In this document: positions 992 to 14,933 of the stretch, piece by piece
Position numbering within the stretch: position 1 is the stretch's first letter
How the letters are laid out: the number at the start of each line of letters is the position of its first letter
Translations under genes and position numbers: made by a program
NCBI RefSeq assembly: GCF_033025475.1
Contig: NZ_CP130322.1
Coordinates: forward strand, 1,992,001 to 2,056,000
Origin: Sphingomonas sp. C3-2
Lineage (GTDB): Bacteria; Pseudomonadota; Alphaproteobacteria; Sphingomonadales; Sphingomonadaceae
Length of the DNA stretch: 64,000 nucleotides
Reading direction: 5' to 3'
Notes under the pieces: generated by a model
The model's database searches: none
The model's input: only the letters and a program-made list of their open reading frames with translations
What the model was told of the DNA's origin: nothing

Positions 992-1368
992 CCCGCGCGC
1001 TTCCCCGGTTCGTCGGGATTGCCCAGTTCGGCGGCGCTGCGCATCTGCGAGGCATCGAGCGTGCGTTCGCCGCGCCAGGCGCGCAAGCTGAGCGTGGCGA
1101 GGACGAGCGTGAGCGCAAAGCCGATGACGATCGCGGTGAGCACCAGTGCCTGCGGCAGCGGGTCGGCGCTGGCCCCCAGCGTCTTTGCGCCTTCGTCGAT
1201 CAGCGGCGGCGCCGCGCTTTTGATCCGCCCGGCCTGGAAGATGATGATGTTGGTCGCGGTGGTGAGCAGCGACAGCCCGAGCAGCAGTCGCACCAGATGG
1301 CGCGACAGGATCATGTAGATCGCGCAGCCGAACAGGATCGAGGCCATGAGCGCATAGACGATGTTCAC
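988..1368 (-). CDS. mrpC: Na+/H+ antiporter subunit MrpC (NuoK-like)
   Basis: Small NuoK-like integral membrane subunit of the Mrp antiporter, 126 residues, close to the family norm. Three hydrophobic segments are visible (about residues 3-20, 27-46 and 72-96), followed by a short charged cytoplasmic tail. Its ATG overlaps the stop of mrpAB by four bases, and its own stop overlaps the mrpD start in the same way, so A/B, C and D form one tight operon. In Mrp complexes this subunit sits between the large MrpA and MrpD antiporter subunits. Confidence 0.93.
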   Translation of the reverse strand: MNIVYALMASILFGCAIYMILSRHLVRLLLGLSLLTTATNIIIFQAGRIKSAAPPLIDEGAKTLGASADPLPQALVLTAIVIGFALTLVLATLSLRAWRGERTLDASQMRSAAELGNPDEPGKRAG

Positions 1369-4109
1369 CGTTCGGCCCCCCTTTGCAGCCCGAAGAGGAA
1401 GGAGAGGACCGCGCCGAGCACGACGACATAGACGCCGAGATCGAAGACCATCGTGGTGCTCGTCTTGAGCACGAGGCCGCCGAGCGACAATTCGTACCAG
1501 GGCTGGACGAGATAGGCGCCGCGTTCAAAAAATCCCGGAAGTCCGGCGAGGAGCACCAGCAGCATTCCCGCGCCGATCACGGAAAGCGGATGGAAATGGA
1601 GCGCGATACGGGCACGGTCGATCCCATGCGCAAGCGCGATCATCGCAAAGGCGAGCGCGGCGACGAGCCCGCCGATAAAGCCGCCGCCCGGTTCGTTATG
1701 GCCGCGCAGCATGATCCACACCGACAGCGCGAGCAGCACCCAGAAGAACAGCCATGCCGTCTTTACCAGGATGAAGGCGGGCTGGCGCCGCGCGCGCGGG
1801 CTGCTCAGCGGTTCGTACAGGCGCGGGCCGAGCAGCGACCAGGCAAGGATCGCCGACATGCCGATCACCATGGTTTCGCCCAGCGTGTCGAACGCGCGGA
1901 AATCGACGAGGATGACGTTGACGACATTGCGCCCCTTGGCCGCGACATAGCTTTCGGCGCCGAAAAAGGCGGAAACCGCGCCGTCATTGCCGCCCGCCGC
2001 CATGTCGAGCAGCGCAACCAACATGATGAGCCCGGCGACGACCGAGAGGATGATGTCGAGCCTGCGCTCGCGGTAGCGGCGCGTGGGCGGAATGCCGAGC
2101 GGGATGGCGAGGAGCAGCGCGGTGAGCATCACCACGATGAGCGCCTCAACCGAGAATTGGGTGAGCGCCAGATCGGGCGCGCCGTTGAGCAGGAAGCCGA
2201 TCGCCACCGAAAAACCGGTGAGCCCGACCGCGATCATCGCCGAGACGAGCCCGCGCATCCAGGCGGCGGCGAGCGCCCCGACCACGCCGATCGCCGCGAT
2301 GAGGAACGCCCCCCATTCGATGGGTGTCGGCTGGGGCAGGCGCGGCGCGATTCCGGCGGCGAGCCAGGCGGTGGGCAGGAGCAGCGCGGTGGCCGCGATG
2401 ACGACGAGCAGATGGCGCCGCAGATCGCCGTGCTGAATCGTGCGCGTGAGCGCGCGCGCGCCGCGAAACACCGTGAGGATCGCGCGTTCGTAGAATTGTT
2501 CGACCCCGGCGCGTTCGAACCAGTTGCTGCCGCGCAGCCGCAAATGGATGCGTTTCCAGTTGAGCGCGATCAGCCCGCCGATCGTGACGACGACCAGACT
2601 GAGCAGCAGCATCGGCGTCAATCCGTGCCACAGCGAGACATTCACCTCGACCGCGCGGCCATAAACCTCGACTGCGGCGGGGCGCAGCACATTGGCGGTC
2701 ACCCATTCGGGATCGAGGCTGAGGAACAGCCCGGCAAAGGCGAGCACGAGCGGGCCGAGCACCAGCCCCACGCTTTCGCCGTGGCGCAGTTCGCTGACCT
2801 TGCCGCGATTGAGGAAGAAGGGCCGCAGCGTGATGACCGAGGCAACCCCCACCATCACCGCGTTGACGAGCACGATAATCGCCATGGGGAGCAGTTCGGG
2901 CGTGCTTTCAAGCTGCGCCTGGAACAGGAATTCCTTGGAGATGAAGCCGAAAAAGGGCGGAAGCCCGGCCATCGACAGGCTGGCGAGCAATGTCGCGAGC
3001 GCGGTCAGCGGCAGATAGCGCACAAGCCCGCCCATCGACCTGAGCGTGCTGAGACCGGTGGCGTGCAGCACCGAGCCGGCGCAAAAGAAGAGCGCGGCCT
3101 TGTAGAGCGCATGGGCAAAGAGGAACCCGACCATCGCGACGCTCGACGCCGGGCCGGTGAGCCCGATCAGCGTGACGAGAATGCCGAGCGAGGCGATGGT
3201 GGAATAGGCGAGCGCGGTCTTGAAGTTTTCCGCGCGCAGCGCCTGCAGCGCGGCGATCAGCATCGAGAGCGCGCCCACCGCGATCAACGTCTGCCGCCCG
3301 CCGGGCACCGCGGCGATCAGCGGCTCGAACCGCGAGAGCAGATAGATGCCGAGCTTCACCATCGTCGCCGAATGGAGATAGGCCGAGGCGGGGGTGGGCG
3401 CCTGCATCGCGTTGGGCAGCCAGAAATGGAACGGGAACTGCGCCGATTTGGTGAAAGCGGCGATCATGATCCCGGCGAGGATCGGCACGACCATCGGGCT
3501 GGCGGCAAGTTCGGGGATGCGTTCCTTGATGTCGCCGAGCGAATAGGTGCCGAGCACCTGCCCGATCATCAGGATCGCGGCGAGCAGCGCCAGCCCGCCA
3601 AAGGCGGTGACATAGAGCGACATCAGCGCCGACCGCCGCGAGCGGACATTCTTGCCGTCGAACCCGATGAGGAGGAACGACAGGATGCTCGTCGCTTCCC
3701 AGAAGACGAGCATGACGATCAGATTGTCGGCCAGCACCGCGCCGAGCATCGCGGTCATGAACAGCAGGATGAGCGTGAAGAAACGGCCCCGGTCGGATGC
3801 CGATTTCTCGTTCATATAGGCGCCCGAATAGATGACGACGAGCGCACCGATGCCGGTGATCAGCAACGACATCATGAACGAGAAGCCGTCGAGCCGGAAG
3901 GTGAGGTAGATGCCGAGATGCGGCGCCCAGTTCAGCCCGTCCCCCAGCACCCAGCCGCGTTCCATGACGGGCGCGGCGGCAATCAGGGCGACGAACAGAC
4001 CGGCGGGGAGGAGTGCGAGGACCCAGCCCGCCCAGCGCCCCGCAAGGCGCGACACGGGGCTGGCAAGGCAGCTGCCGGTTAAGGCGATCAGGAGTATCCA
4101 GATCAGCAT
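1365..4109 (-). CDS. mrpAB: Fused Na+/H+ antiporter subunits MrpA-MrpB
   Basis: A 914-residue membrane protein combining the NuoL-like MrpA subunit with MrpB at its C-terminus, an arrangement known from Pha/Mrp systems of proteobacteria. The MrpA part (to about residue 750) shows the FWEATSILSFLLIGFD helix and the KSAQFPFHFWLPNAMQAPTP segment typical of proton-translocating NuoL homologues. The last about 140 residues carry the MnhB-type RGHNEPGGGFIGGL loop and a terminal STTMVFDLGVYVVV helix. It is the first gene of the operon; the start at 4109 begins directly with a membrane helix. Likely role is cytoplasmic pH and sodium homeostasis. No promoter is obvious in the 180 bases upstream. Confidence 0.95.
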   Translation of the reverse strand: MLIWILLIALTGSCLASPVSRLAGRWAGWVLALLPAGLFVALIAAAPVMERGWVLGDGLNWAPHLGIYLTFRLDGFSFMMSLLITGIGALVVIYSGAYMNEKSASDRGRFFTLILLFMTAMLGAVLADNLIVMLVFWEATSILSFLLIGFDGKNVRSRRSALMSLYVTAFGGLALLAAILMIGQVLGTYSLGDIKERIPELAASPMVVPILAGIMIAAFTKSAQFPFHFWLPNAMQAPTPASAYLHSATMVKLGIYLLSRFEPLIAAVPGGRQTLIAVGALSMLIAALQALRAENFKTALAYSTIASLGILVTLIGLTGPASSVAMVGFLFAHALYKAALFFCAGSVLHATGLSTLRSMGGLVRYLPLTALATLLASLSMAGLPPFFGFISKEFLFQAQLESTPELLPMAIIVLVNAVMVGVASVITLRPFFLNRGKVSELRHGESVGLVLGPLVLAFAGLFLSLDPEWVTANVLRPAAVEVYGRAVEVNVSLWHGLTPMLLLSLVVVTIGGLIALNWKRIHLRLRGSNWFERAGVEQFYERAILTVFRGARALTRTIQHGDLRRHLLVVIAATALLLPTAWLAAGIAPRLPQPTPIEWGAFLIAAIGVVGALAAAWMRGLVSAMIAVGLTGFSVAIGFLLNGAPDLALTQFSVEALIVVMLTALLLAIPLGIPPTRRYRERRLDIILSVVAGLIMLVALLDMAAGGNDGAVSAFFGAESYVAAKGRNVVNVILVDFRAFDTLGETMVIGMSAILAWSLLGPRLYEPLSSPRARRQPAFILVKTAWLFFWVLLALSVWIMLRGHNEPGGGFIGGLVAALAFAMIALAHGIDRARIALHFHPLSVIGAGMLLVLLAGLPGFFERGAYLVQPWYELSLGGLVLKTSTTMVFDLGVYVVVLGAVLSFLFGLQRGAER

Positions 4110-4347: not shown

Positions 4348-5508
4348 TCAGGCGGCGAGATCGGCGATTTCGTCTTCGCTGAGGCCGAGATCGGCGAGGA
4401 TGGCGCGCGTGTCGGCACCCGGCTGGGGCAGGACCGACGCGGCCGCCGCGAGCTGGCCGTCGAACGCGATAGGCAGCGCGGGCAGGCGGGTTTCGCGGCC
4501 ATCGGCCAATGTGACGGGTTCGAGCGCGCCGGTGGCGGCGAGGTGCGGATCGTCGAACATGTCCTCGGGCTTGCCGATCGGCGCGAAGGGCAGGCCGGTG
4601 CCTTCGAGGCGCGCGATCACCTCGTCCCGCGTGAAGCCTGCAATCAGTTCGCGGATCTGCGGCAGGATCTGATCGCGCTTGAGCACGCGGTCGTTGTTCT
4701 TGCGCAAGCCTTCATCGGCCCAGAGCGCGTCGAGCCCGAAGAGCGCGCAGAATTTCTCCCACAGCCCGTCGGTGACGACGCCGATGAACACCGGATCGTC
4801 CCTGGTTTCGAACACGTCGTAGATCGCCCAGGCCGAAATGCGCGCGGGCATCGGGTTCGCCGCCTTCCCGGTGACGGCAAGCTGCGCCATGTGCTGGCCA
4901 ACGAGGAAGACCGTGGTTTCGAAGAGCGAGGCCTGGATGAGCTTGCCCTTGCCCGTGCGGTGGCGTTCCTCAAGCGCGGCGAGCACGCCGATCACGCCGA
5001 ACATGCCGCCCGTCACGTCGATGACGCTGGAGCCGGCGCGAAGCGGGCGTCCCGGCGGGCCGGTCATATAGGCGAGCCCGCCCATCATCTGCGCGACTTC
5101 GTCGAGCGCGGTGCGCTTTTCATAGGGGCCGGGGAGGAAGCCCTTGGCCGAGCAATAGATGAGGCGCGGATTGGCCTGCGACAGCGCGTCGTAGCCAAGG
5201 CCGAGCTTTTCGAGCGCGCCGGGGCGGAAATTTTCGATCAGGATATCGGCCTTGGCGGCGAGCTTCTGGGCGATGGCCAGCCCTTTTGCCGATTTCAGAT
5301 CGAGCGAGATGCTCTTCTTGTGGCGGTTGTACATCGGGAAATAGCCCGATCCCGAACCGAGCAGCGTGCGTGTCTTGTCGCCCTCGGCGGGTTCGACGCG
5401 GATCACTTCCGCGCCCAGCGCGGCGAGCATCGCGCCCGCCGCCGGGCCCATCACCATATGCGTGAATTCGACAACCTTGATGCCTGCAAGTGGTGCGGGC
5501 GTGTTCAT
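4348..5508 (-). CDS. CaiB/BaiF family (type III) CoA-transferase
   Basis: Type III acyl-CoA transferase that moves CoA between carboxylic acids through an aspartyl-CoA thioester. The 386-residue length fits the family. The N-terminal GIKVVEFTHMVMGPAAGAML block, an ENFRPGALEKLGLGY motif and the candidate catalytic Asp136 in KRTALDEVAQMMGG are visible. It is the last gene of the left arm, and its start overlaps the HMG-CoA-lyase-like stop by four bases (5505-5508). That pairing suggests it makes the CoA thioester that the lyase cleaves, for example a citramalyl-CoA or methylmalyl-CoA type substrate. The substrate itself is not readable from sequence; related enzymes act on succinyl, citramalyl, mesaconyl, itaconyl and carnitinyl groups. 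Confidence 0.85.
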   Translation of the reverse strand: MNTPAPLAGIKVVEFTHMVMGPAAGAMLAALGAEVIRVEPAEGDKTRTLLGSGSGYFPMYNRHKKSISLDLKSAKGLAIAQKLAAKADILIENFRPGALEKLGLGYDALSQANPRLIYCSAKGFLPGPYEKRTALDEVAQMMGGLAYMTGPPGRPLRAGSSVIDVTGGMFGVIGVLAALEERHRTGKGKLIQASLFETTVFLVGQHMAQLAVTGKAANPMPARISAWAIYDVFETRDDPVFIGVVTDGLWEKFCALFGLDALWADEGLRKNNDRVLKRDQILPQIRELIAGFTRDEVIARLEGTGLPFAPIGKPEDMFDDPHLAATGALEPVTLADGRETRLPALPIAFDGQLAAAASVLPQPGADTRAILADLGLSEDEIADLAA

Positions 5509-6434
5509 GCTGCAACCTTTCCGAAGCCGAGCGGCAGACCCGCATCGGGGGTGAAACCGTAAAGCGGCTCGCCGGGCAGCGCGTCCGCGATGATGCTGCG
5601 CACCTTGAGCAGCTTTTCGAGATCGATCCCGGTGTCGAAGCCCATCGCCTCGAGCATGAAGACCAGATCCTCGGTGACGATATTGCCCGACGCGCCGGGC
5701 GCGAACGGGCAGCCGCCCAGCCCGCCGAGCGAGGAATCGAGCGTGGTGATGCCTTCCTCAAGCCCGGCCAGCGCGTTGGCGAGGCCAAGGCCGCGGGTGT
5801 TGTGAAGGTGGAGCGTGTTGAGCCGATCGGCGCCGATATCCGCCTTGATCGCGCGGACCATGCGCTTCACCTGCGCGGGATTGGCGTAACCGGTGGTGTC
5901 CGACAGCCCGACCTCGCGCGCGCCCGCTTCGATCGCGGCCCCGGCGAGGCGGCGGACAGCGTCTTCGCTCACCGGCCCCTCGATCGTGCAGCCGAACGCG
6001 GTGGCGAGACCCACCTCGAAATGCGGGCGCGTGGCTTCGGGCTGCTGCGCGACGAGATCTGCGATCGCGCGGATTTCGGCGAGCATCGCGGCGTGATCCT
6101 TGCGGACATTCTTCAGGCTGTGCGTTTCGGACATCGAGAAGGGGATGGAGATTTTTTCCGCCCCAGCTGCGATCGCGCGTTCGGCGCCCTTCAGATTGGG
6201 GACGAGCGCGGCAACCGACAGCCCCTCAATCCCCCTGGCGAAGGCGATCAGTTCGGCGGTGTCCGCCATCTGGGGCAGCAGGCTGGGCGGCACGAAGCTG
6301 CCGACCTCGATTTCGGGCACGCCGGCGGCGGCTTCCGCGGCGATCCAGGCCTTTTTCGCTTCGAGCGGCATCACCCGGTCGATGCTCTGCAGGCCGTCGC
6401 GCGGGCCGACTTCGCTGATATGAATGCGCGTCAT
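5505..6434 (-). CDS. Hydroxymethylglutaryl-CoA lyase-like enzyme
   Basis: A 309-residue DRE-TIM metallolyase of the HMG-CoA lyase family, which cleaves a 3-hydroxyacyl-CoA diacid to acetyl- or propionyl-CoA plus an oxo acid. The PRDGLQ motif (metal Asp13), the LHLHNT metal histidines (209, 211) and the flexible-loop cysteine 242 in GGLGGCPFAPGASGN are all present. ATG 6434 is chosen because the protein begins with the canonical ISEVGPRDGLQ and overlaps the leuD-like stop as ATGA; an upstream in-frame extension reads through leuD in the wrong frame. The neighbours (CoA-transferase, LeuCD-type hydratase) argue for a citramalyl-CoA- or alkylmalyl-CoA-like substrate rather than leucine-derived HMG-CoA, but that is inference. 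Confidence 0.88.
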   Translation of the reverse strand: MTRIHISEVGPRDGLQSIDRVMPLEAKKAWIAAEAAAGVPEIEVGSFVPPSLLPQMADTAELIAFARGIEGLSVAALVPNLKGAERAIAAGAEKISIPFSMSETHSLKNVRKDHAAMLAEIRAIADLVAQQPEATRPHFEVGLATAFGCTIEGPVSEDAVRRLAGAAIEAGAREVGLSDTTGYANPAQVKRMVRAIKADIGADRLNTLHLHNTRGLGLANALAGLEEGITTLDSSLGGLGGCPFAPGASGNIVTEDLVFMLEAMGFDTGIDLEKLLKVRSIIADALPGEPLYGFTPDAGLPLGFGKVAA

Positions 6435-7048
6435 GGTTGAACGTCTCCGAGATAGATCCAGGGGCGCGCGGCTTTGTCGGCCTCCTGAAAGGCGGCGATT
6501 TCCGCCTGGTTCTTGAGGGTGAGATCGATCGCGTCGAGCCCTTCGTAGAGCATGGCCTTGGCCTCGGCGCCGATCTCGAACGACCACTCGGTGCCGCTGG
6601 CGAGCGTCACCGTCTGCGCCGCGAGATCGATCGTCACCGGCCCGCCATCCTGCGCGATGGCGGCAACGGCCGCCTCGGCGAGCACCAGCGGGACAATGCC
6701 GTTGCGCGTGCAGTTGCCCGCGAAGATCGGCGCGAAACTGGGCGCGATCACCGCGCGGATGCCATATTCGGCAAGCGCCCAGACCGCGTGTTCGCGGCTG
6801 GAGCCACAGCCGAAATTCGTGCCCCCCAGCAGAATTTCAGCCTGTGCGAATGCGGGCTGGTTGAGCACGAATTCGGGGTTGGGATCGCGTCCCCCCGGCG
6901 TCAGATAGCGCCAGGCGGAGAACAGCCCCTCGGCAAGGCCGGTCTTGCCCGTGCTCTTCATCTCGCGCGAGGGGATGATGGCGTCGGTATCGATATTGTC
7001 GCGGATTAGCGGCGCCGCGACCGAGGTGACAGTGGTGAAGGGGGTCAT
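6431..7048 (-). CDS. leuD: LeuD-type hydro-lyase small subunit (3-isopropylmalate dehydratase family)
   Basis: Small (swivelling-domain) subunit, 205 residues, of an aconitase-superfamily dehydratase. The family motif FGCGSSREHAVWAL and the preceding NIDTDAIIPSRE segment are clear. Start ATG 7048 overlaps the stop of the large subunit by four bases. In leucine synthesis LeuCD isomerises 2- to 3-isopropylmalate. Here there is no leuA or leuB beside it, while an HMG-CoA-lyase-like gene and a CoA-transferase follow, so a dedicated catabolic hydratase (citraconate, dimethylmaleate or maleate type) is at least as likely. The leuD symbol names the family, not a proven role. Confidence 0.85.
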   Translation of the reverse strand: MTPFTTVTSVAAPLIRDNIDTDAIIPSREMKSTGKTGLAEGLFSAWRYLTPGGRDPNPEFVLNQPAFAQAEILLGGTNFGCGSSREHAVWALAEYGIRAVIAPSFAPIFAGNCTRNGIVPLVLAEAAVAAIAQDGGPVTIDLAAQTVTLASGTEWSFEIGAEAKAMLYEGLDAIDLTLKNQAEIAAFQEADKAARPWIYLGDVQP

Positions 7049-8451
7049 GCCGCAATCTCCCGCGGATCGGCGATATGGCCCGCGATCGCGCTGGCGGCGA
7101 CGGTTTCGGGGCTGGCGATATGGGTGCGGATATTGGGGCCCTGACGCCCCTCGAAATTGCGGTTGGTGGACGAGATCACGCGCGATCCGGCGGGAAAGCT
7201 TTCGCCGCCCGCATAAAAGCACATCGAGCATCCGCTCATCCGCCATTCGAACCCGGCTGCGGTAAAGACCTGGTCGAGCCCCTCGGCCTCGGCGGCGCGG
7301 CGTACCGCCATCGATCCGGGGACGACGAGCGCCTTGACGCCGGGCGCGACATGGCGGCCCTTCAGCAGCGCGGCGGCACGGCGCAGATCGGACAGGCGGC
7401 CATTGGTGCAACTGCCGATAAAGGCGGCGTCGATGGGGATGCCGGCCAGCTTTTGCCCCGGTTCCACACCCATATAGGCGCGCGGGCGTTCGGGCGCGTC
7501 GGCGGGCACCTGCCCCGAAATGCCGGTGGCGTGTTCGGGCGAGGTGCCCCAGCTGACCATCGGTTCGATGGCGGCGGCGTCGATGGTGATGTCGGTGTCG
7601 AACGCGGCGTCCGCGTCGGAGGCGAGCGTCCGCCATTCGGCGATCGCGCGGTCGAGCACCGCCCCTCTGGGCGCGTAGCGGCGGCCGGCAATCCAGTCGA
7701 ACGTCTTCTGATCGGGCGCGATCATGCCCGTCATCGCGGCGAATTCGGTGGCCATGTTGCAGAGCGTCATGCGCCCTTCCATGTCGAGCGCGGTGACCGC
7801 ATCGCCCGTGAATTCGACGGCATAGCCCTTGCCGCCGCCGGCGCCGTGGCGCGCGATCAGCGTCAGGATCATGTCCTTGGGGGTAACGCCCGGTGCCAGC
7901 GTGCCGGTAAAGGCGACGCGCATCGTTTTCGGGCGGGTGAGGCGCAGCGTGCCCGTGGCCATCGCATGTTCGGCCTCGGACGAGCCGATGCCCCAGGCCA
8001 GCGCCCCAAAGGCGCCCTGCGTGCAGGTGTGGCTGTCGGGCGCGATCAGCGTGCAGCCGGGCAGCACGATCCCCAGTTCGGGCGAGACGACATGGACGAT
8101 CCCCTGATCGGGGTCGGTCACGTCGAACAGCGTGATTCCGGCTTCGGTCGCCGCCGCACGGGTTTCGGTGATGAACGCCTGCCCGCCGGGCATCAGCGTC
8201 TGATCCCCGCGCCCCGGGCGCGTGTCGACGATATGATCCATCACGCAAAAGACGCGCGCGGGATCGGCGACCGTCCGGTTGGCCGCCTTGAGACTGTTCA
8301 AGGCGGCGGCACCGGTGCGTTCATGCAGGAAGATCCGGTCGATGGCGATCAGTTCGGCGCCACCGGAGAGACCGGCAACGACGTGCCGGTCCCAGATTTT
8401 CCCGAACAGGGTGCGAGGATCAGGCAGCCTGATTCTCCATTTCCTTTTCAA
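7045..8451 (-). CDS. leuC: LeuC-type hydro-lyase large subunit (4Fe-4S)
   Basis: Large, Fe-S-carrying subunit of a LeuCD-type dehydratase, about 460-468 residues. The three cluster cysteines are in FIGSCTNGRLSD (Cys348) and GCSMCFYAG (Cys408, Cys411), and the substrate loop PDSHTCTQGAFGALAWGIG is well conserved. The start is uncertain. There is no ATG before the conserved RTLFGKIWDRHVV block. The longest frame begins at TTG 8451 inside the end of the upstream gene; CTG 8427, preceded by AGGAAATGGAG, is an alternative. Either way translation is coupled to the upstream gene. It forms a complex with the LeuD-like subunit next to it. Whether it serves leucine synthesis or the surrounding catabolic route is open; context favours catabolism. 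Confidence 0.85.
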   Translation of the reverse strand: MKRKWRIRLPDPRTLFGKIWDRHVVAGLSGGAELIAIDRIFLHERTGAAALNSLKAANRTVADPARVFCVMDHIVDTRPGRGDQTLMPGGQAFITETRAAATEAGITLFDVTDPDQGIVHVVSPELGIVLPGCTLIAPDSHTCTQGAFGALAWGIGSSEAEHAMATGTLRLTRPKTMRVAFTGTLAPGVTPKDMILTLIARHGAGGGKGYAVEFTGDAVTALDMEGRMTLCNMATEFAAMTGMIAPDQKTFDWIAGRRYAPRGAVLDRAIAEWRTLASDADAAFDTDITIDAAAIEPMVSWGTSPEHATGISGQVPADAPERPRAYMGVEPGQKLAGIPIDAAFIGSCTNGRLSDLRRAAALLKGRHVAPGVKALVVPGSMAVRRAAEAEGLDQVFTAAGFEWRMSGCSMCFYAGGESFPAGSRVISSTNRNFEGRQGPNIRTHIASPETVAASAIAGHIADPREIAA

Positions 8452-8920
8452 GAGCGGCCCAGTCGCGGCTGACGAGCTTTTCCTGAATGGCGGTGCGGGT
8501 TTCGAGCAGGCCGTTGCGGATCCAGTGCCAGGTGCGGCAGCGCGTCTGGCCGTCGTCCGAAAGCTGGATCATCTCGTAGAGATACAGGCTGGGGTCGCCC
8601 TGGCGCTGCCAGTAGAGCATCACGGTGCGGTTATATTCGTCGAGACCGACTTCGGCGGCCCAGCCCTTGATCAGATCATTGTCCCACCACACGCGCTTGT
8701 CGGCATAGGTGGCCGGGAAATCGCGCACATCGGTGCGGCCATCGTCCCAGATATAATGGTTGGTCTGGTGATAGGGCGTGTCGCTGTCGTCCTTGAAGCG
8801 GCAGAACAGGCGCGACTTATGCTCGTCGATCTTCTCGCCGGCAGCGTTGTAATAGGTGTAAACACCGTCCCACACGCCCTCATGGCGTGCCAGCAGCGGC
8901 ATGTCTTCACGAATACCCAT
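8420..8920 (-). CDS. Uncharacterised 166-residue protein, possibly lipocalin-like
   Basis: I do not recognise a function. The protein is soluble, without a signal peptide or membrane segment, and rich in Trp, Tyr and Asp. The opening LARHEGVWDGVYTYYN and the repeated W-x-D/N beta-strand-like segments (HYIWDDGRTDVRDFP, RVWWDNDLIKGW) resemble lipocalin/DUF3598-like beta-barrels that hold small hydrophobic ligands, but this is only a fold guess. It lies 12 bases downstream of the alpha/beta hydrolase and overlaps the start of leuC, so it belongs to the left-arm operon and probably acts on, binds or carries an intermediate of that pathway. Confidence 0.7.
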   Translation of the reverse strand: MGIREDMPLLARHEGVWDGVYTYYNAAGEKIDEHKSRLFCRFKDDSDTPYHQTNHYIWDDGRTDVRDFPATYADKRVWWDNDLIKGWAAEVGLDEYNRTVMLYWQRQGDPSLYLYEMIQLSDDGQTRCRTWHWIRNGLLETRTAIQEKLVSRDWAALEKEMENQAA

Positions 8921-8932
8921 TATCTTCTCCCT

Positions 8933-10486
8933 TTAAAAACCTTCAGGTGCCCAGATGTCGGTCCGGCCGGTGGCCCAATCCGCCTTTTCCCAGCGGGTGA
9001 TGGCGGGGGCGGCGGCGATGATCGCATCGCGGTCCGCCGCGACGAGCGCACCGAGAAGCGCGCGCCCTGCGCGGGCGCGGATCAGGCTGCGATGTTCGGC
9101 GGCAAGCGCTTCCGGCGCGATGTCTTCGGCTTCGAACGGAATGGCGTTGGCGTGCTTTGCCTCGAACCACGGCCAGAAGAAGTGCGCACCGCGCACCGCG
9201 CTCCAGCCGGCGTTCAGATATGCGCCGAAGCGGTCGGGCGTCTGATCGGGGATTGCCTGATCGGCCCAGCGTTCGGCATCGGCCGCCTGCGGAATATGCG
9301 CGGCGATCGCGCCCCAGCCCGGCGCGTTGATGCGCGCGGCAATGGCGCCCGCGAGGAGTGCGGAGAAGCCCTCACCAATGATTTGCGGCGCCTTTGCGCC
9401 CGAGATCGCGGCGATGGCCGCTGCGGCGACCGCGCTCCAGCCCGCGAGATCGGGGGTGTAGCCGGCTTGCCAATTGTCGGACAGGCCGTGGCCGGGCAGG
9501 TCGATCGCCAGCGTATCGGTGGTGTCGATCAGTTCGGCGGCGCGGCCGGGCGCATGGAAGACGATGGTGTCGGCATCGCGCTGGCCCTGCCAGTGGATCA
9601 GGCCGTCGAAACCCGGCACCGCGACATGCGCAAAGCCGCCGTCGCGGCTTTCGGCGATGGTCGGGATCGGCACGGTTTCGGCCGCAAGCAGATGGGCAAG
9701 GCAGGCGTCTTCGAGATCGGTTGGGGTTGCCACCGCTTCGGCGCGCCAGCTTGGCGGCAGTTCGCCGAGGCGCGCGATATGCGCCTGCAGCGGATCGCCA
9801 TTATAGGCCGCGATCAGCACGGGGATGGTCTGCGCATCGACCGCCGGAATATCGCGCGGCGCGCGGAGCACCGCGCCATAGCCGGCGCGGTAAGCATCGC
9901 CGCTGTCGAGCATGTCGCGGATCACCGCATCGGTCTTGACCGGATCGTCGTGCGCGACGCTGATTCGCGCGCCGTGGCGCACGTCGAACCAGGGGAAGAA
10001 CCAGGTCTGTTCGATGATCCGGTTCCACAGCCAGGTCAGGTGCTCGCCGTAGGCGCTGGGCTGGAAGGGGGGCAGATAGCCCTTGTCGAAAATCGCGGAT
10101 TCTTCGGGCGTCCAGATCGCATAACCGCCGGTGGCAAGCGCCGTGAAACGGTCCGGATGGCGCTTGACCGCGCCCACCAGGATGATGCCGCCCGAGTGGA
10201 AGCCATAGGCGGCCGTCCTGGCGATGCCGAGCGCGTCGAGCAGGTCGACAAGCGCGGTTGAAAAGTCGTCAATTTCCGGATTGCCCGGCAGCGGATCGGA
10301 CTGGCCGAAGCCCGGCGAGTCGGGCGCGATGCACGTGAAGTGCTGCCCCCATTTTTCCATCAGCGGTTCATATTCGGCCGAACTGCGCGGACTTTGGTGG
10401 ATCATCAGCAAGGTCGGGCCCTGACCGGCCTTGCGATAATGAACTCGGCGATCGCCGACGCGAATGAAGTGACGGGTGATGCTCAT
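8933..10486 (-). CDS. Tandem alpha/beta hydrolase with a degenerate second domain
   Basis: A 517-residue protein with two alpha/beta-hydrolase modules in a row; most family members have one of about 270-300 residues. Domain 1 (about 1-280) has an oxyanion segment IHQSPRSSAEY, nucleophile Ser98 in YGFHSGGI, a likely acid Asp231 (YNGDPLQAH) and His265. Domain 2 (about 285-517) keeps the AIDLPGHGLSD strand-loop, but its nucleophile elbow reads IIGEGFSAL, with Gly at the serine position, so it looks catalytically dead. ATG 10486 is chosen because it opens a clean family N-terminus (SITRHFIRVGDRRVHYRKAG); the longer in-frame extension runs antisense through the divergent amidase gene. First gene of the left arm, eight bases from the shared palindrome. 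A C-N hydrolase role similar to N-formylmaleamate deformylase is possible but unproven. Confidence 0.82.
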   Translation of the reverse strand: MSITRHFIRVGDRRVHYRKAGQGPTLLMIHQSPRSSAEYEPLMEKWGQHFTCIAPDSPGFGQSDPLPGNPEIDDFSTALVDLLDALGIARTAAYGFHSGGIILVGAVKRHPDRFTALATGGYAIWTPEESAIFDKGYLPPFQPSAYGEHLTWLWNRIIEQTWFFPWFDVRHGARISVAHDDPVKTDAVIRDMLDSGDAYRAGYGAVLRAPRDIPAVDAQTIPVLIAAYNGDPLQAHIARLGELPPSWRAEAVATPTDLEDACLAHLLAAETVPIPTIAESRDGGFAHVAVPGFDGLIHWQGQRDADTIVFHAPGRAAELIDTTDTLAIDLPGHGLSDNWQAGYTPDLAGWSAVAAAAIAAISGAKAPQIIGEGFSALLAGAIAARINAPGWGAIAAHIPQAADAERWADQAIPDQTPDRFGAYLNAGWSAVRGAHFFWPWFEAKHANAIPFEAEDIAPEALAAEHRSLIRARAGRALLGALVAADRDAIIAAAPAITRWEKADWATGRTDIWAPEGF

Positions 10487-10493
10487 GGCGCCT

Positions 10494-10511
10494 AATTTGT
10501 CCGGACAAATT
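10494..10511. promoter_or_regulatory. Perfect 18-bp palindrome, probable operator between divergent arms
   Basis: AATTTGTCCGGACAAATT is fully self-complementary and sits in the 84-base gap between the divergent hydrolase (start 10486) and amidase (start 10571) genes. The TTGTC...GACAA half-sites resemble those bound by FCD-type GntR regulators. No GntR gene is visible in the window, so the binding protein is unknown. Its place, eight bases upstream of the hydrolase start codon, suits repression of the left arm and possibly both arms. Confidence 0.6.
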
Positions 10512-10570
10512 CCGCTCGACAAGTCCTTTTCTTCAACTATCGTACGAATCACGAGTTCGCAGGAGGCATA

Positions 10571-11251
10571 ATGACACTGATCGGGACCCAGATGGTTTGC
10601 GATGGTCGCACGGCGCGTCAGATCTTTGAGGAAGTCATGGCGAACCCGGCGCGCAACAAGTTCGGCTTCGGGGAAAAGCTGGCCATCGTGAACGTGGATT
10701 TCCAGCAGGCCTATACCCGCACGGACATGTTCAAGACGGCGTATGAGACCGATCCGCGCCAGATCGAATATGTGAACATCATTTCGCGCCTTGCCCGTGC
10801 CAAGGGCATGCCGGTGATCTGGAGCCGCGTCGGCTATAAGGACGATGCGGGCGATGCCGGCGTCTGGGGCACGCGCACCAACACCCCGGATTCGCTGCAG
10901 AACATCAAATATGGCAGCGAGCGCCACGCCTTTGATCCGCGCTGCGAGATCGACGCGAACGACCTTGAATACACCAAGCGCATGCCCTCGGCCTTTTTCG
11001 AGACGCCGCTTGCCAGCTATCTGCGCTGGCACAAGGTGGATACGGTTGTCGTCACCGGCGGCAGCACCTCTGGCTGCGTGCGCGCGACCGCAGTGGATTC
11101 GCTGTCCTATGGGTTCCGCACGATCGTTCCGATCGAAACCAGCGCCGACAAGCATGAAAGCTATCACTTCGCCAATCTGACCGATCTTCAGCTGAAATAT
11201 GCCGATGTCGAACCGGTACAGACCGTGATCGACTGGCTGGAGGCCCGCTGA
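10571..11251 (+). CDS. Isochorismatase-fold amidohydrolase (N-carbamoylsarcosine amidase / maleamate amidase type)
   Basis: Cysteine hydrolase of the isochorismatase superfamily, 226 residues, which removes ammonia or a carbamoyl group from an amide. The catalytic triad is visible: Asp43 in NVDFQQAYT, Lys136 in EYTKRMPSAF and nucleophile Cys169 in GGSTSGCVRATA. The GSTSGCVRAT block matches the N-carbamoylsarcosine amidase and maleamate amidohydrolase (NicF) branch rather than true isochorismatases. A strong ribosome-binding site AGGAGG lies just before ATG 10571. It is the first gene of the right arm and overlaps the next start by one base. In context it probably hydrolyses the half-amide released by the downstream ring-opening enzymes. 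Confidence 0.85.
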   Translation: MTLIGTQMVCDGRTARQIFEEVMANPARNKFGFGEKLAIVNVDFQQAYTRTDMFKTAYETDPRQIEYVNIISRLARAKGMPVIWSRVGYKDDAGDAGVWGTRTNTPDSLQNIKYGSERHAFDPRCEIDANDLEYTKRMPSAFFETPLASYLRWHKVDTVVVTGGSTSGCVRATAVDSLSYGFRTIVPIETSADKHESYHFANLTDLQLKYADVEPVQTVIDWLEAR

Positions 11252-12153
11252 TGCGCGAAGGCGAAGCCGATCCCGGCCTGTATGATTTCGCGCCCTATCG
11301 CGGCCGCCCCAGGATTACATGGCCGGGCGGCAAGAAGGTTGCCGTCTGGGTGGCGCCCAATCTCGAATATTACGAGATCGACCCGCCCGCCAATCCGCTG
11401 CGCAAGAGCTGGACCAAGCCGCACCCCGATGTTGTGGGCTTTTCGCACCGCGATCATTCGAACCGCGTGTCGCACTGGCGCATGGCGGAGGCGATGTCGA
11501 AATACGGCTTTCCGGGTTCGGTTTCGCTGTCGGTGGCGCTGTGCCAGCACCATCCCGAGGTGGTGAACGATGCGAACGCGCGCGGCTGGGAATTCTTCAG
11601 CCACGGCATCTACAACACGCGTTATTCCTATGGGATGGACGAGGCGCAGGAACGCGCGATCATCGAGGATTCGATCCGCACCGTGCGCGAGGCGACCGGG
11701 CAGACGATCCGCGGCTGGCTCGCCCCCGCGCTCACCCACACGCCGCGCACGCTCGATCTGATCGCCGAATATGGGCTCGACTATACGTGCGACCTTTATC
11801 ACGACGATCAGCCCCAGCCGGTGCATGTGAAGACGGGCAAGCTCGTTTCGATCCCGTACAGCCTTGAGGTCAACGACCATTACGGCTTCTTCGTCTACAA
11901 CATGTCCCCGCGCGAATATGCCGATACGCTGATCCGGCAATATGAGCGCCTGGCCGAGGAAGGCGCGGAATCGGGCACGGTGATGTGCATTCCGCTTCAC
12001 GCCTATCTGATCGGTCAGCCGCACCGCATCGGCCCCTTTGCCGAGGTGCTCCGCCATATTGCCGAGGATGGCCGCGCCTGGATCGCCCGCGCGGGCGAGA
12101 TCGCCGACCATTATTACGCCCATCATTATGCGGAGGCCCTCAATGGCGCTTGA
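11251..12153 (+). CDS. PuuE/imidase-like polysaccharide-deacetylase-fold hydrolase 1
   Basis: NodB-fold hydrolase, 300 residues, of the branch that includes cofactor-independent allantoinase PuuE and bacterial cyclic imide hydrolases, which open small C-N rings. Visible are the ITWPGGKKVAVWVAPNLEYY N-terminus, SHRDHSNRVSHWRM, and EFFSHGIYNTRYS with His118. The second histidine of the classical deacetylase HxxxH zinc motif is absent, as expected for the PuuE branch. The start overlaps the amidase stop by one base (TGATG). No signal peptide, so it acts in the cytoplasm on a small molecule, not on cell-wall sugar. It is paired with a second, divergent copy directly downstream. Confidence 0.82.
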   Translation: MREGEADPGLYDFAPYRGRPRITWPGGKKVAVWVAPNLEYYEIDPPANPLRKSWTKPHPDVVGFSHRDHSNRVSHWRMAEAMSKYGFPGSVSLSVALCQHHPEVVNDANARGWEFFSHGIYNTRYSYGMDEAQERAIIEDSIRTVREATGQTIRGWLAPALTHTPRTLDLIAEYGLDYTCDLYHDDQPQPVHVKTGKLVSIPYSLEVNDHYGFFVYNMSPREYADTLIRQYERLAEEGAESGTVMCIPLHAYLIGQPHRIGPFAEVLRHIAEDGRAWIARAGEIADHYYAHHYAEALNGA

Positions 12154-13057
12154 TCCCGCCTATCTCGAATATCCCAAGCGCCGGGAGGGGTATGACCATG
12201 ACCTTTATCCATGGTCGTCGATCTTTTCGCGTCCGCCCGTCGCCTGGCCCGAGGGCAAGTCGGTCGCGGTGTGGCTGTGCGTCAGCCTGGAATGGTTTCC
12301 GATCACGCCGACGGACAAGCCGTTCCGCGCGCCGGGCCATATGCAGACCAGCTATCCCGATTATCGCCACTATACGGCGCGCGAATATGGCACGCGCATC
12401 GGCATGTATCGGTTGCTGGATGCGTTCCAGAAGGCGGGGGTACGCGGTTCCTTTGCCACCAACGGCGCGATTGCCGACCGTTACCCCCAACTGATCCGCG
12501 ACATCGTGGCGGACGGGCACGAGATCATCGCGCATTCGACCGACATGAACGGCACGATCGCGACCGGCCTGCCGATCAAGGACGAGCGCGCGCTGATCGA
12601 GGGGGCGATCGCGTCGCTTGAAAAGGCGACGGGCAAGCGCCCCGAAGGCTGGCTGTCGATCGCGCGGTCGCAGAGCTGGAACACGCCTGCGCTGCTGAAG
12701 GAAGCGGGTTTCCGCTATGCGTGCGACTGGGCGAACGACGAACTGCCCTGGCGCTTTGCCAATGGACTGGTCAACCTGCCGCTGAACCATGAACTGTCCG
12801 ACCGGCAGATCATCACCGTCCAGCAGCAATCGGCCGACAGCTATGCCCAGCAGATGATCGATGCCTTCGACTGGCTGGCGGCAGAAGCCAAGACGCATGG
12901 CGGGCGCGTGCTGCCGCTCCACATCACCCCCTATATCATGGCGTTGCCCTACCGCATTTCGGCCTTTGAAAAGCTGATCGGCGAGCTCGCGGCGCGGCCC
13001 GAGGCGTGGTTTGCGCCGGGCAATGAGATCGTATCCGCATGGGAGGCGCAGGCATGA
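12143..13057 (+). CDS. PuuE/imidase-like polysaccharide-deacetylase-fold hydrolase 2
   Basis: A 304-residue relative of the preceding gene, clearly diverged: it shares the WPEGKSVAVWLCVSLEW strand, an EIIAHSTDMNG motif in place of the SHGIYNTR block, and GWLSIARSQSWNTPALLKEAG. ATG 12143 lies inside the end of gene 1 (11-base overlap) and opens MALDPAYLEYPKRREGY, which fits the family; longer frames read gene 1 out of frame. Two such hydrolases in one operon may act as a heteromer or on successive substrates. Same caveat as for gene 1: allantoinase, imidase and other cyclic amide activities cannot be told apart by eye. Confidence 0.82.
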   Translation: MALDPAYLEYPKRREGYDHDLYPWSSIFSRPPVAWPEGKSVAVWLCVSLEWFPITPTDKPFRAPGHMQTSYPDYRHYTAREYGTRIGMYRLLDAFQKAGVRGSFATNGAIADRYPQLIRDIVADGHEIIAHSTDMNGTIATGLPIKDERALIEGAIASLEKATGKRPEGWLSIARSQSWNTPALLKEAGFRYACDWANDELPWRFANGLVNLPLNHELSDRQIITVQQQSADSYAQQMIDAFDWLAAEAKTHGGRVLPLHITPYIMALPYRISAFEKLIGELAARPEAWFAPGNEIVSAWEAQA

Positions 13058-14487
13058 GCCTTGCCGTTGTAAATCCGCGTACCGGTGAACCCGATTACAG
13101 CATCGAACCGCTCGATTCCGCGGCCCTGGGCGCGGTTGCTGCGCACCTACGCGCGGCGCAGCCCGGCTGGGCGGCCGCCACGCCGCAGGCGCGCGCCGTG
13201 CAGCTGCGCGCGCTGGCCGATGCGATCGGCCGTCACCGCGATGCGCTGATCGCCGCGCTGACCGACGATACCGGCCGCGCCGCGATCTCGGTGATCGAGG
13301 TCGATACCATGGCGCGCACCCTGCTCCGCTGGGCGGACAGCGCGCCCGAGATCATCGCGCGCAGCGAGGTGAACGACCGCGCCACCGGGATTCCGACGAT
13401 CACCACCTCCACCCGGCTGGTGCCCTATGATCTGGTCGGCGTGATCAGCCCGTGGAATTTTCCGCTCACGCTGGCGCTGATCGACGCCATCCCCGCGCTT
13501 GCCGCCGGGTGCGCGGTGCTGATCAAGCCGTCCGAAATCACCCCGCGCTTCATCCGGCCGTTGCTGGCGGCGATTGCCGAAGTGCCCGAACTGGCCGGTG
13601 TGCTGACGCTGGTCGAAGGCGACGGCGCAACGGGTGCGGCGCTGGTCGAGCATGTCGATTTCGTGGCCTTTACCGGATCGGTCGCCACCGGCCGCAAGGT
13701 GGGCGAGGCCGCCGCGCGCGCGTTCATCCCGGCCAGCCTTGAGCTGGGCGGCAAGGACCCGATGCTCGTGCTGGCGAGCGCGGACCCGATCAAGGCCGCC
13801 GAAACCGCGCTGCGCGCGTCGATCGTCAACAGCGGGCAGGCCTGCCAGTCGCTCGAGCGAATCTATGTCGCGCGCGCGATTGCCGAGCCGTTTCTCGATC
13901 ATCTCGTCGCCTGCGCCAAGGCGGTGCGGCTCAACTATCCCGATGTGCATCAGGGCGATATCGGCCCGTTCATCTTCGCGCGGCAGGCCGAAATTGTGCA
14001 GGAACAGCTCGACGACGCCGTGGCGAAGGGCGCGCGCGTGCTGGCCGGCGGACAGGTGGAAACGCTGGGCGGCGGCAAATATCTGCGTCCGACGGTGCTT
14101 GCCGATGTGACGCCCGACATGGCGGTGCTGGCCGAGGAAACCTTCGGCCCCGTCATTCCGGTGACGATCTTCGACACCGTCGACGAGGCGGTGGCCCATG
14201 CCAATGCGGGGATTTACGGCCTGTCGGCGGCGGTGTTCGCCGGTAGCGTTGCAGAGGGCGAGGCCGTGGGCCGGCGCATCCGCGCGGGCGGAATCTCGAT
14301 CAACGACGGATCGCTGACCGGGCTGGTCTGGGAAGCCGAGAAGTCAAGCTTCGGCAAGAGCGGGCTCGGCCCGTCGCGCATGGGGGATAGCGGCTTGCTG
14401 CGGTTCTTCCGCAAGCAGGCGCTTATTCGCCAGTCGGGCAGCGCGCTGCCGCTGGCGGCCTATTCGGAAGAAGCGCTGGGCGGCTGA
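13054..14487 (+). CDS. NAD(P)+-dependent aldehyde dehydrogenase
   Basis: ALDH-superfamily oxidoreductase converting an aldehyde to an acid, 477 residues. The oxyanion Asn135 (SPWNFPL), the FTGSVATGRKVG cofactor loop, general base Glu230 (LELGGKDP) and nucleophile Cys264 (NSGQACQSLERI) are all present. ATG 13054 overlaps the preceding stop (ATGA) behind a GGGAGG ribosome-binding site; an ATG 15 bases upstream is possible but less well placed. Last gene of the right arm. It resembles succinate-semialdehyde-type dehydrogenases in length and motif spacing, but the substrate is not resolvable. Probably oxidises an aldehyde released during breakdown of the cluster's substrate. Confidence 0.88.
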   Translation: MSLAVVNPRTGEPDYSIEPLDSAALGAVAAHLRAAQPGWAAATPQARAVQLRALADAIGRHRDALIAALTDDTGRAAISVIEVDTMARTLLRWADSAPEIIARSEVNDRATGIPTITTSTRLVPYDLVGVISPWNFPLTLALIDAIPALAAGCAVLIKPSEITPRFIRPLLAAIAEVPELAGVLTLVEGDGATGAALVEHVDFVAFTGSVATGRKVGEAAARAFIPASLELGGKDPMLVLASADPIKAAETALRASIVNSGQACQSLERIYVARAIAEPFLDHLVACAKAVRLNYPDVHQGDIGPFIFARQAEIVQEQLDDAVAKGARVLAGGQVETLGGGKYLRPTVLADVTPDMAVLAEETFGPVIPVTIFDTVDEAVAHANAGIYGLSAAVFAGSVAEGEAVGRRIRAGGISINDGSLTGLVWEAEKSSFGKSGLGPSRMGDSGLLRFFRKQALIRQSGSALPLAAYSEEALGG

Positions 14488-14504
14488 TCGCCGTCAGGAT
14501 GGCA

Positions 14505-14549
14505 GGATGGCGGGGCCGTGCGCACCGCCATCCCCGGCCTTGGGGCCGG
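14505..14549. terminator. Double hairpin between convergent ALDH and LuxR genes
   Basis: A perfect 9-bp stem (14505-14513 with 14525-14533) is followed at once by a 6-bp GC stem (14534-14539 with 14544-14549). Neither has a T-tract, so factor-independent termination is uncertain, but the place between two convergent genes fits a bidirectional stop. Confidence 0.4.
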
Positions 14550-14579
14550 GCAGGGCGGCTGCGTCAACGATACCGCACA

Positions 14580-14933
14580 TCAATGCCAGATCTTGGGCGC
14601 CTTATCGGCTTCGCCGGCGGCTGGCATATAGCCGATCGGCGTGCGGGCCAGCATGTCCGCCGGGCAACGGCCATTGGCGATCGCGGCGGCGATTTCCGGG
14701 ATGCGTCGACCCTCGATCGACAGGATTTGCGCGGCAATGGCCTTGGCTACCATATGGGTGCGGTTGCGCGCCTGAAGTTTGAGGCGGACATTGTCGATAT
14801 GACGCTCGACAGTGCGCGGCGCGATATCGATTCGCTGCGCGACTTCCTTGGCCGAATAACCCTGAGCGACAAGCTCAAGGATCTGGTATTCACGGCCGGT
14901 GAGCCCGGCAGCGCCATAATGCTGATCAATCAT
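14580..14933 (-). CDS. Small LuxR-type DNA-binding regulator
   Basis: A 117-residue protein consisting mainly of a LuxR/GerE helix-turn-helix: LTGREYQILELVAQGYSAKEVA, then IAPRTVERHIDNVRLKLQARN with the usual recognition-helix pattern. There is no receiver or autoinducer domain before it; the helix-turn-helix begins about ten residues from the start, and a tail of about 40 residues follows. It is convergent with the aldehyde dehydrogenase and is the only regulator touching the cluster, so it may control it, although the palindrome in the central gap looks more like a GntR site. A ligand-sensing role for the C-terminal tail is possible but unsupported. Confidence 0.8.
   Translation of the reverse strand: MIDQHYGAAGLTGREYQILELVAQGYSAKEVAQRIDIAPRTVERHIDNVRLKLQARNRTHMVAKAIAAQILSIEGRRIPEIAAAIANGRCPADMLARTPIGYMPAAGEADKAPKIWH

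Follow-up and report, generated by a model that had tools for sequence, protein, structure and literature searches.

A conserved two-operon gene cluster of Sphingomonas sp. C3-2 that looks like one arm of an undescribed catabolic regulon

We analysed a 64-kb window (the whole stretch of DNA under study, G000:C1:1992001-2056000) within the 3.53-Mb genome of Sphingomonas sp. C3-2 (G000), and describe here a gene cluster at window positions 4348–14487. One of its two divergent putative operons encodes a CaiB-type coenzyme A (CoA)-transferase (CaiB), a lyase resembling 3-hydroxy-3-methylglutaryl (HMG)-CoA lyase (HMGL), the LeuD- and LeuC-like subunits of a hydratase, a DUF3598-like protein and an alpha/beta hydrolase (ABH), and the other an isochorismatase-fold amidase (ISC), two hydrolases of the PuuE branch (PDA1 and PDA2) and an aldehyde dehydrogenase (ALDH). 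The cluster is a real, conserved and specialised arm of what looks like a catabolic regulon that draws on known enzyme families but is itself undescribed. We put the probability at about 0.58 that both operons serve as the lower arm of a regulon for the catabolism of an imported N-heterocyclic compound, by way of the reactions proposed below.

All the enzyme families named in a preliminary description of this DNA are present in the window, in divergent operons of overlapping genes, and pass their Pfam cut-offs. The gene list was correct, while the DUF3598 gene (8420–8920) and a palindrome in the divergent promoter (10497–10508) had been missed, and a LuxR-type gene (14580–14933) had wrongly been placed within the range. 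The description knew of no pathway with this gene set, and we likewise found none in the open-access literature searched, subscription papers lying mostly outside that search.

Conservation and distribution of the gene set

PDA1 occurs at E ≤ 1e-60 in 34/199 genomes of the family, spread over 26 of 96 genera, and gave an alignment in 43/385 genomes of the class; the highest identities outside G000, 95% and 94%, are in two genomes of the same genus. A scan of GTDB gave at least 555 confirmed loci, and the gene counts for GTDB loci are based on the 60 of the best 80 that offered at least 17 kb of DNA. Left out were the 20 shorter GTDB loci, one locus in which no gene was called (L208), four short ones (L197, L212, L221, L224) and close plasmid copies (L146–L148 and L154). 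Since our own codon-score gene calls missed or fused genes (for example ISC in L070, L088 and L142), presence was counted by tblastn on the DNA with thresholds, so that a weaker isochorismatase gene beside PDA1 (for example in L152 and L220) is not scored as ISC.

PDA1, PDA2 and ISC were found together in all 60 loci, with PDA2 adjoining PDA1 in every one of them. HMGL was found in 48, and LeuC, CaiB and HMGL co-occur in the same 45. That the two arms belong together, as the preliminary description supposed, is thus borne out by 45/60 loci, and it holds in two gene orders: the divergent order of the window with ABH and mostly also DUF3598 and ALDH, and a second architecture in which HMGL-ISC-PDA1-PDA2 follow one another and CaiB-LeuC-LeuD are divergent from them. 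The conservation of the gene set exceeds chance.

Among 19 more distant loci (PDA1 at 50–65% identity), hand-picked from PDA1 matches among genomes of the class and plasmids, PDA2 lies in the same locus as PDA1 in all 19, ISC in 18, LeuC in eight and a lyase of the phosphoenolpyruvate (PEP)-mutase/isocitrate-lyase (ICL) type in ten. In L057 PDA1 and PDA2 are separated by one gene. Seven of the eight with LeuC carry this methylisocitrate-lyase-like enzyme, and the eighth (L198) carries HMGL and CaiB. In 17 loci with PDA1 below 50% identity there was no LeuC and no ISC at ≥50% identity, although weaker isochorismatase genes exist (L152), and PDA2 was found in nine.

Relatives of PDA1 are also found in 90 plasmid records, ten of them at 80–90% identity, and the gene layout around PDA1 is the same in plasmids pJE1 and pTomTYG65b. 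Window-type arms also occur in two Steroidobacter-type genomes. The patchy spread within the family, the plasmid relatives at 80–90% identity (10/90 records) and the presence of several carbon-nitrogen (C–N) hydrolases would suit a cluster that detoxifies assorted natural or synthetic imides, or scavenges their nitrogen, rather than feeding on one compound. We consider this quite unlikely in view of the carbon-cleaving lower arm, the TonB receptor and the sharply bounded set of palindrome-bearing promoters described below.

Some individual loci deserve mention. The pJE1 module (L324:10803-24800) also has hydantoinase/oxoprolinase A and B by Pfam and is annotated with HapK, MmgE/PrpD and succinate-semialdehyde dehydrogenase, again many ring-opening enzymes together; no paper on pJE1 that might give a substrate clue was found in the open-access literature. 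One genome of another family (G371) has two PDA1-PDA2-ISC clusters, L198 with LeuCD, HMGL and CaiB and L199 with CaiB, acyl-CoA dehydrogenase, MaoC and HpcH-HpaI. PDA1 genes 82–84% identical to that of the window lie on contigs of 3–4.5 kb labelled as Rhodopirellula and Verrucomicrobiota metagenome-assembled genomes (L100, L110), which perhaps represent mis-binned sphingomonad DNA.

The cluster LeuCD is a second, specialised copy

By its phylogeny and its fixed differences, the LeuCD pair of the cluster is a second, specialised copy. Another LeuC is encoded at 827040–828455 of G000, with LeuD one gene off. This LeuC falls together with those of PDA1-free genomes, which have one copy each, and that speaks against the cluster LeuC as the enzyme of leucine synthesis. 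In genomes that were hand-picked, not drawn at random, for this and for the palindrome comparison, all 14 PDA1-bearing genomes tested (of 34) have a cluster-type LeuC (61–100% identical) together with at least one LeuC at 48–55%, as opposed to a single LeuC at 47–51% identity in each of 12 PDA1-free genomes. In G038 the cluster-type LeuC sits apart from PDA1.

In a LeuC tree of 55 rows (a quick search, no bootstrap) the cluster type forms one clade of 32 rows with SH-aLRT 100, separate from housekeeping LeuC, and the LeuC proteins adjoining the PEP-mutase-type lyase form a third, distinct clade; two of the 14 presumed housekeeping rows, each the single LeuC of a PDA1-free genome, are not part of the main housekeeping group. 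Differences fixed between cluster and housekeeping proteins (≥85% in each set) were found at 23 positions of LeuC (51 vs 11 rows) and ten of LeuD (57 vs 11 rows). For example, S27 and an inserted R54 are present in 57/57 cluster LeuD rows, where housekeeping LeuD has A27 in 11/11 and a gap at R54 in 10/11. LeuC retains C348, C408 and C411 in 51/51 rows. It misses the TIGR00170 cut-off (525.7 vs 560.25 bits) and reaches the broader PRK12466 (672 vs 531), and LeuD exceeds the TIGR00171 cut-off (Table 1).

Generic family annotation would make LeuCD and HMGL ordinary genes of leucine metabolism that lie beside amidases by chance. This is very improbable, because G000 has another LeuC with LeuD elsewhere, an extra LeuC accompanies PDA1 in 14/14 genomes and is seen in 0/12 without it, the cluster proteins show fixed differences, the genes stay linked in both gene orders, and their promoter carries a conserved palindrome. 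A role in leucine synthesis is also rejected on sequence grounds by the separate clade, and the preliminary view that LeuCD does not merely serve that pathway stands as far as sequence goes. We also observed a third LeuCD pair in G107 (L261:6283-14001), which has its own branch in the LeuC tree and whose neighbours resemble an acyl-CoA ligase, an SDR and a labelled CaiB protein by sequence.

A common palindrome marks a larger gene set

When the divergent promoters of eight window-type loci were aligned, including two of Steroidobacter-type genomes, the sequence TTGTCCGGACAA proved invariant, and it is found in the divergent promoter of 21/24 window-type GTDB loci. Among 56 other GTDB loci it was found in two (L114, L132), both short contigs carrying window-type genes. 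Further copies precede genes for the methyltransferase-like MTc8 (L099, L117, L137), a DUF1838 protein (L117), DUF3108c9/c16 (L144) and DUF3598 (L090, L199).

G000 (3.5 Mb) has five sites, where a first-order estimate from the composition of the window predicts 0.1 and the reversed pattern occurs once. The only site within the window is the divergent promoter of the cluster. The site at 1456858 lies 59 bases from a RipC-like gene. That at 1457651 is within an over-long open reading frame (ORF); its equivalent in G107 sits 70 bases before the start of a TonB receptor gene. The site at 1359784 precedes etfBA, also in G168; an acyl-CoA dehydrogenase encoded with the gene set described next would need electron-transfer flavoprotein. 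The fifth site, at 2832274, does not fit this pattern: although near tonB-exbB, it falls within a small ORF, and neither G107 nor G168 has it among its sites.

In eight of twelve window-type genomes tested (G004, G047, G060, G089, G092, G105, G108, G142) all four to seven sites fall in one stretch of 27–55 kb, and in G000, G107 and G168 they are spread over the genome. PDA1-free genomes have no site in nine of 11 cases and one site in two. Sites at phosphomannomutase and flagellin genes in G107, and one of the four sites in G371, near an aconitase gene, look like chance occurrences. In G168 a gene of the Asp/Glu/hydantoin-racemase family (PF01177; L326:6771-7571) starts 37 bases from a copy of the palindrome; this superfamily includes maleate isomerases.

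Tiling of six one-stretch genomes and the two loci of G000 gave 27 gene families present in 7/7 islands and 32 present in at least six, and in G004, 34 of the 40 commonest island families are found at ≥40% identity in one stretch. G000 splits the gene set between 2.0 Mb and 1.42–1.47 Mb, over half a million bases apart. The cluster thus seems to be an arm of a 30–40-gene set that includes a TonB receptor, oxidases and three more C–N hydrolases: one further PuuE-branch enzyme (the third), an amidase of the amidase-signature family and a protein with the nitrilase fold. The TonB receptor gene (PF00593) is followed on the same strand by MFS, FADc12, NITc14, MTc8, c11 and DUF3108c9. Besides this receptor, the MFS carrier and the FAD oxidase, the island encodes two MmgE/PrpD proteins, a PaaK-like ligase, a HapK/REDY-family protein (PF11639, E 1.1e-11), an SDR, an ECH, the acyl-CoA dehydrogenase and a GntR/UTRA regulator. 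RipB- and RipC-like genes of the second block score under their cut-offs (242.2 vs 340 and 230.6 vs 375 bits for the G142 representatives; the G000 proteins were assigned by Pfam only). MTc8 (~400 aa) is labelled in 40/60 GTDB loci, often with the small partner c11 (e.g. L067:15483-16682), and L204 has three tandem copies of it. Pfam and PDB sequence comparison brought us little closer to names for c9, c11, c16 and c20; the idea that the membrane protein c16 is a HemJ relative was dropped, as it has only weak DUF2269/CopD Pfam matches.

The C–N hydrolases together with two diacid arms suggest a substrate that probably has several C–N bonds and yields at least two diacids. The best NCBIfam model for the GntR/UTRA regulator is HutC (92 bits vs a cut-off of 220), and we take the TTGT-ACAA palindrome to suit this HutC/GntR-UTRA class. 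The regulator probably binds TTGTCCGGACAA and co-controls the window operons and the second block.

A proposed route from a cyclic imide to an acyl-CoA

In the catabolic reading that we prefer, PDA1 and PDA2 would open a five-membered cyclic imide, probably methyl-substituted and of the maleimide type, to a half-amide, which ISC would convert into the dicarboxylate. Hydration of its double bond by LeuCD would yield an alkylmalate, which is probably a tertiary 2-methylmalate. CaiB would transfer CoA to this acid, and HMGL would split the ester by a retro-Claisen reaction. The products would be an acyl-CoA carrying the other ring substituent and a 2-oxo acid, which would be pyruvate where a methyl group sits on the carbinol carbon. 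Uptake, ring release and the processing of a second diacid would fall to two operons at 1.42–1.47 Mb, the TonB receptor/oxidase/amidase one and the RipBC-like CoA one.

PDA1 is predicted to be a cyclic-amide hydrolase of the PuuE branch. Its best PDB match is the PuuE allantoinase 3cl6 (E 1.1e-27), and phmmer matches to 3cl6, 1z7a and 3qbu place both PDA1 and PDA2 in the PuuE/HpPgdA branch, to which the cyclic imide hydrolases (CIH, HxnM) also belong. According to excerpts of two publications (PMC3084791, PMC9304392), PuuE, HpPgdA and fungal HxnM are related enzymes of the deacetylase fold that act on small cyclic imides. PDA2 is possibly a heteromer partner of PDA1. ISC combines PF00857 with D43, K136 and C169, invariant in 75/75 aligned rows, an Asp-Lys-Cys set that we take to be the catalytic triad of isochorismatase-fold amidases, and we propose that it acts as a half-amide (maleamate-type) amidase.

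For CaiB, the proposed source of the hydroxy-diacid's CoA ester, D164 is invariant (55/55 rows); the mesaconate CoA-transferase model is not reached (181.9 vs 700 bits). HMGL has E8, R12 and D13 in 56/56 rows covering them and H209, H211, C242 and N251 in 57/57. The conserved residues of CaiB, LeuC and HMGL presumably have catalytic roles. By score and catalytic residues HMGL agrees with the HMG-CoA lyases, and it may cleave HMG-CoA itself.

The best support for the proposed order of reactions is the replacement of the lyase beside the trio PDA1-PDA2-ISC, which elsewhere pairs with other lyase families of like chemistry. The trio is also found with LeuC of other subfamilies and a methylisocitrate-lyase-like protein, to which a TcuA-like flavoprotein is sometimes added (4/19 and 8/60 loci), and in L199 with two CaiB proteins, an acyl-CoA dehydrogenase, a mesaconyl-CoA-hydratase-like (MC_hydratase) protein and an HpcH/HpaI lyase, the G142 orthologues being RipB- and RipC-like. 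All three lyase families suit malate skeletons, which argues for a malate-type diacid. The native substrate of HMG-CoA lyase has a tertiary methyl carbinol, and HMGL would thus fit 2-methylmalyl-CoA. The imide-opening, diacid-cleaving pathway of the preliminary description is therefore plausible and agrees with the sequence comparisons, but it was drawn too narrowly, as the cluster appears to be one arm of a larger set.

A number of observations weigh against the preferred reading. PDA1 and PDA2 score 117.3 and 89.2 bits with the PuuE allantoinase model TIGR03212, under its cut-off of 424.6, and their substrate is therefore not readable from homology. PDA1-PDA2-ISC occur without LeuC within the DNA searched in 15/60 GTDB loci (three of these with HMGL alone), and PDA1-PDA2 in 11/19 distant loci. 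Three of the 24 window-type loci lack the exact palindrome (one mismatch in L110, none found in L088 and L107), and it was absent in 4/4 tested PDA1 genomes of other architecture (G031, G057, G133, G160). The etfBA site is absent among the sites of G107 and the eight one-stretch genomes. G072 has 36 scattered sites (e.g. L290, L296, L301), unlike every other genome tested, possibly due to a repeat element or a wider regulator. The proposed pathway gives no step to DUF3598, ABH or ALDH.

Two further points that weigh against it bear on rival explanations. The best PDB matches of ISC are N-carbamoylsarcosine amidohydrolase 26st and, equal with it, 4l07, and this likeness would suit a ureide too. 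PDA1 and PDA2, which have the allantoinase PuuE among their relatives, might then open a hydantoin or dihydropyrimidine and ISC remove the carbamoyl group, with LeuCD, HMGL and CaiB handling an unrelated carbon skeleton. We regard this as unlikely, since a carbamoyl amidase would yield an amino acid, which is no LeuCD substrate, and since Pfam found neither an aminotransferase nor an ammonia-lyase among the ten genes.

The second point is that HMGL exceeds the HMG-CoA lyase model PRK05692 (268.8 vs 246 bits). A six-membered imide of the methylglutaconimide type, derived from a methylated pyridine, could give 3-methylglutaconate, which LeuCD would hydrate to 3-hydroxy-3-methylglutarate, CaiB convert to HMG-CoA and HMGL cleave to acetyl-CoA and acetoacetate. 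The best-scoring NCBIfam model for CaiB, albeit at 242 bits far under the cut-off of 750, is succinate-glutarate CoA-transferase, whose human counterpart accepts HMG. However, aconitase-family hydratases act on vicinal dicarboxylates, which 3-methylglutaconate is not, and relatives of the cluster have, in place of HMGL, methylisocitrate-lyase-like or RipC-like lyases, which act on malate-type skeletons. This branch, too, appears rather unlikely to us.

As to the substrate, we tentatively consider, as a doubtful idea, that the gene set is the missing route by which bacteria would degrade oligopyrrole pigments aerobically (bilins, products of chlorophyll or heme breakdown, prodiginine-like pigments). 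The TonB receptor would import the pigment and the oxidases free its rings as methyl-substituted maleimides and succinimides; the window arm would, for example, make pyruvate plus glutaryl-CoA from hematinic acid imide, or pyruvate plus butyryl-CoA from methyl-ethyl-maleimide, and the RipBC-like arm would take the reduced ring. Hints in this direction come from one conserved island in which four families supply six C–N hydrolases, from two different diacid-cleaving arms, from the HapK/REDY-family protein, and from proteins related to tricarboxylate enzymes (MmgE/PrpD within the island, the aconitase family, and TcuA- and PrpB-like proteins in other variants). The fold neighbours of the DUF3598 protein include nitrobindin and the phycobilin lyase CpeS, but also spirocyclases and fatty-acid-binding proteins, and no heme- or bilin-specific enzyme was identified among the cluster and island genes annotated.

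In summary, Sphingomonadaceae share, in patchy distribution, a recurring gene set of 27–55 kb that has a TonB receptor and a promoter palindrome of its own, and related modules are found on plasmids. If the proposed pathway holds, a role would follow for deacetylase, isochorismatase, LeuCD and HMGL genes that are now misleadingly named, and if the substrate is a tetrapyrrole product, a gap that has long existed in the cycling of pigment carbon and nitrogen would be filled. The palindrome can be used to delimit the set in a genome and to screen for its inducer, which makes the question of the substrate directly testable.

Layout of the locus and neighbouring genes

The features of the locus are given in Table 1. 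Neighbouring genes share 1–11 bases (32 if LeuC starts at 8451), and the only gaps between cluster genes are one of 12 bp (8921–8932) and the divergent one of 84 bp.

Table 1. Genes and proposed operator of the cluster, in window positions.
Feature	Position	Strand	Basis and remarks
CaiB, CaiB-type (family III) CoA-transferase	4348..5508	-	PF02515, E 5.7e-111
HMGL, HMG-CoA-lyase-like, predicted retro-Claisen lyase	5505..6434	-	PRK05692, 268.8 bits
LeuD-like hydratase small subunit, specialised	6431..7048	-	TIGR00171, 191.4 bits vs cut-off 116.25
LeuC-like hydratase large subunit, specialised	7045..~8451	-	PF00330; start codon uncertain
DUF3598-like calycin-fold protein	8420..8920	-	PF12204, 24.1 bits vs cut-off 22
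ABH, alpha/beta hydrolase, 517 aa	8933..10486	-	PF00561; motif GFHSGG with S98
Palindrome AATTTGTCCGGACAAATT, divergent promoter, proposed operator	10494..10511	.	core 10497-10508
ISC, isochorismatase-fold amidase	10571..11251	+	PF00857
PDA1, Polysacc_deac_1/PuuE-branch hydrolase	11251..12153	+	best PDB match 3cl6
PDA2, second Polysacc_deac_1/PuuE-branch hydrolase	12143..13057	+	PDB 3rxz, 1z7a, 3cl6
ALDH, aldehyde dehydrogenase	13054..14487	+	PF00171; alternative start 13039

In ABH, whose length would allow two domains, H97 and S98 are invariant (24 aligned rows), as are E230 and C264 in ALDH (19 aligned rows), which may provide an oxidation step. The AlphaFold model of the DUF3598 protein has a mean predicted local distance difference test (pLDDT) of 94.6, and its nearest solved folds are BFA1, the DUF3598 protein 2o62, the spirocyclase OssO, nitrobindin and CpeS; it may be a binding protein, or an isomerase or hydratase acting on an intermediate. 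The LuxR-type gene was labelled beside the cluster at no other locus compared and was not counted as a member for this reason. Just past the end of CaiB, genes for Mrp-type antiporter subunits (Oxidored_q2, Proton_antipo_M, MnhB) occupy positions 988–4109 on the minus strand.

Comparison with known systems

The end steps of nicotinate fermentation are catalysed by dimethylmaleate hydratase (DmdAB) and then 2,3-dimethylmalate lyase. As in that pathway, the cluster would use a LeuCD-family hydratase on an alkylmaleate followed by a C–C lyase, and some relatives of the cluster have a lyase of the PEP-mutase/ICL type. Unlike it, the window has an HMGL-like lyase and a CoA-transferase, and its diacid would come from PuuE-branch and isochorismatase-fold hydrolases. 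The itaconate pathway RipABC shares the sequence of CoA-transferase, hydratase and citramalyl-CoA lyase, and RipB- and RipC-like genes lie in the palindrome-marked second block; these score below their cut-offs, however, and the arm in the window has LeuCD and HMGL instead.

The riboflavin/lumichrome (Lum) pathway, as described in excerpts of PMC12746152, is similar in that several hydrolases open an imide-containing heterocycle and a retro-aldol step ends the route. It differs in employing a P450, a thiamin-dependent decarboxylase, a xanthine oxidase and Rieske and catechol dioxygenases, and the words aconitase, isochorismatase, deacetylase and CoA lyase are absent from its main text. No P450, Rieske or xanthine-oxidase component was found among the 27 families of the seven islands (Pfam of representatives; the rest of the genome was not searched). 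With such different enzymes, a riboflavin/lumichrome pathway is not supported for the cluster.

The allantoinase PuuE and N-carbamoylsarcosine amidohydrolase share their folds with PDA1 and ISC and are their best PDB matches, and PuuE is also among the matches of PDA2, but the PuuE cut-off is missed and the downstream genes differ from those of purine and creatinine catabolism. Lastly, HxnM and the cyclic imide hydrolase of P. putida, according to excerpts of PMC9304392, likewise employ the PuuE/HpPgdA branch of the polysaccharide-deacetylase fold to open a cyclic imide. There, a single enzyme acts on a six-membered ring, whereas the window encodes two tandem paralogues.

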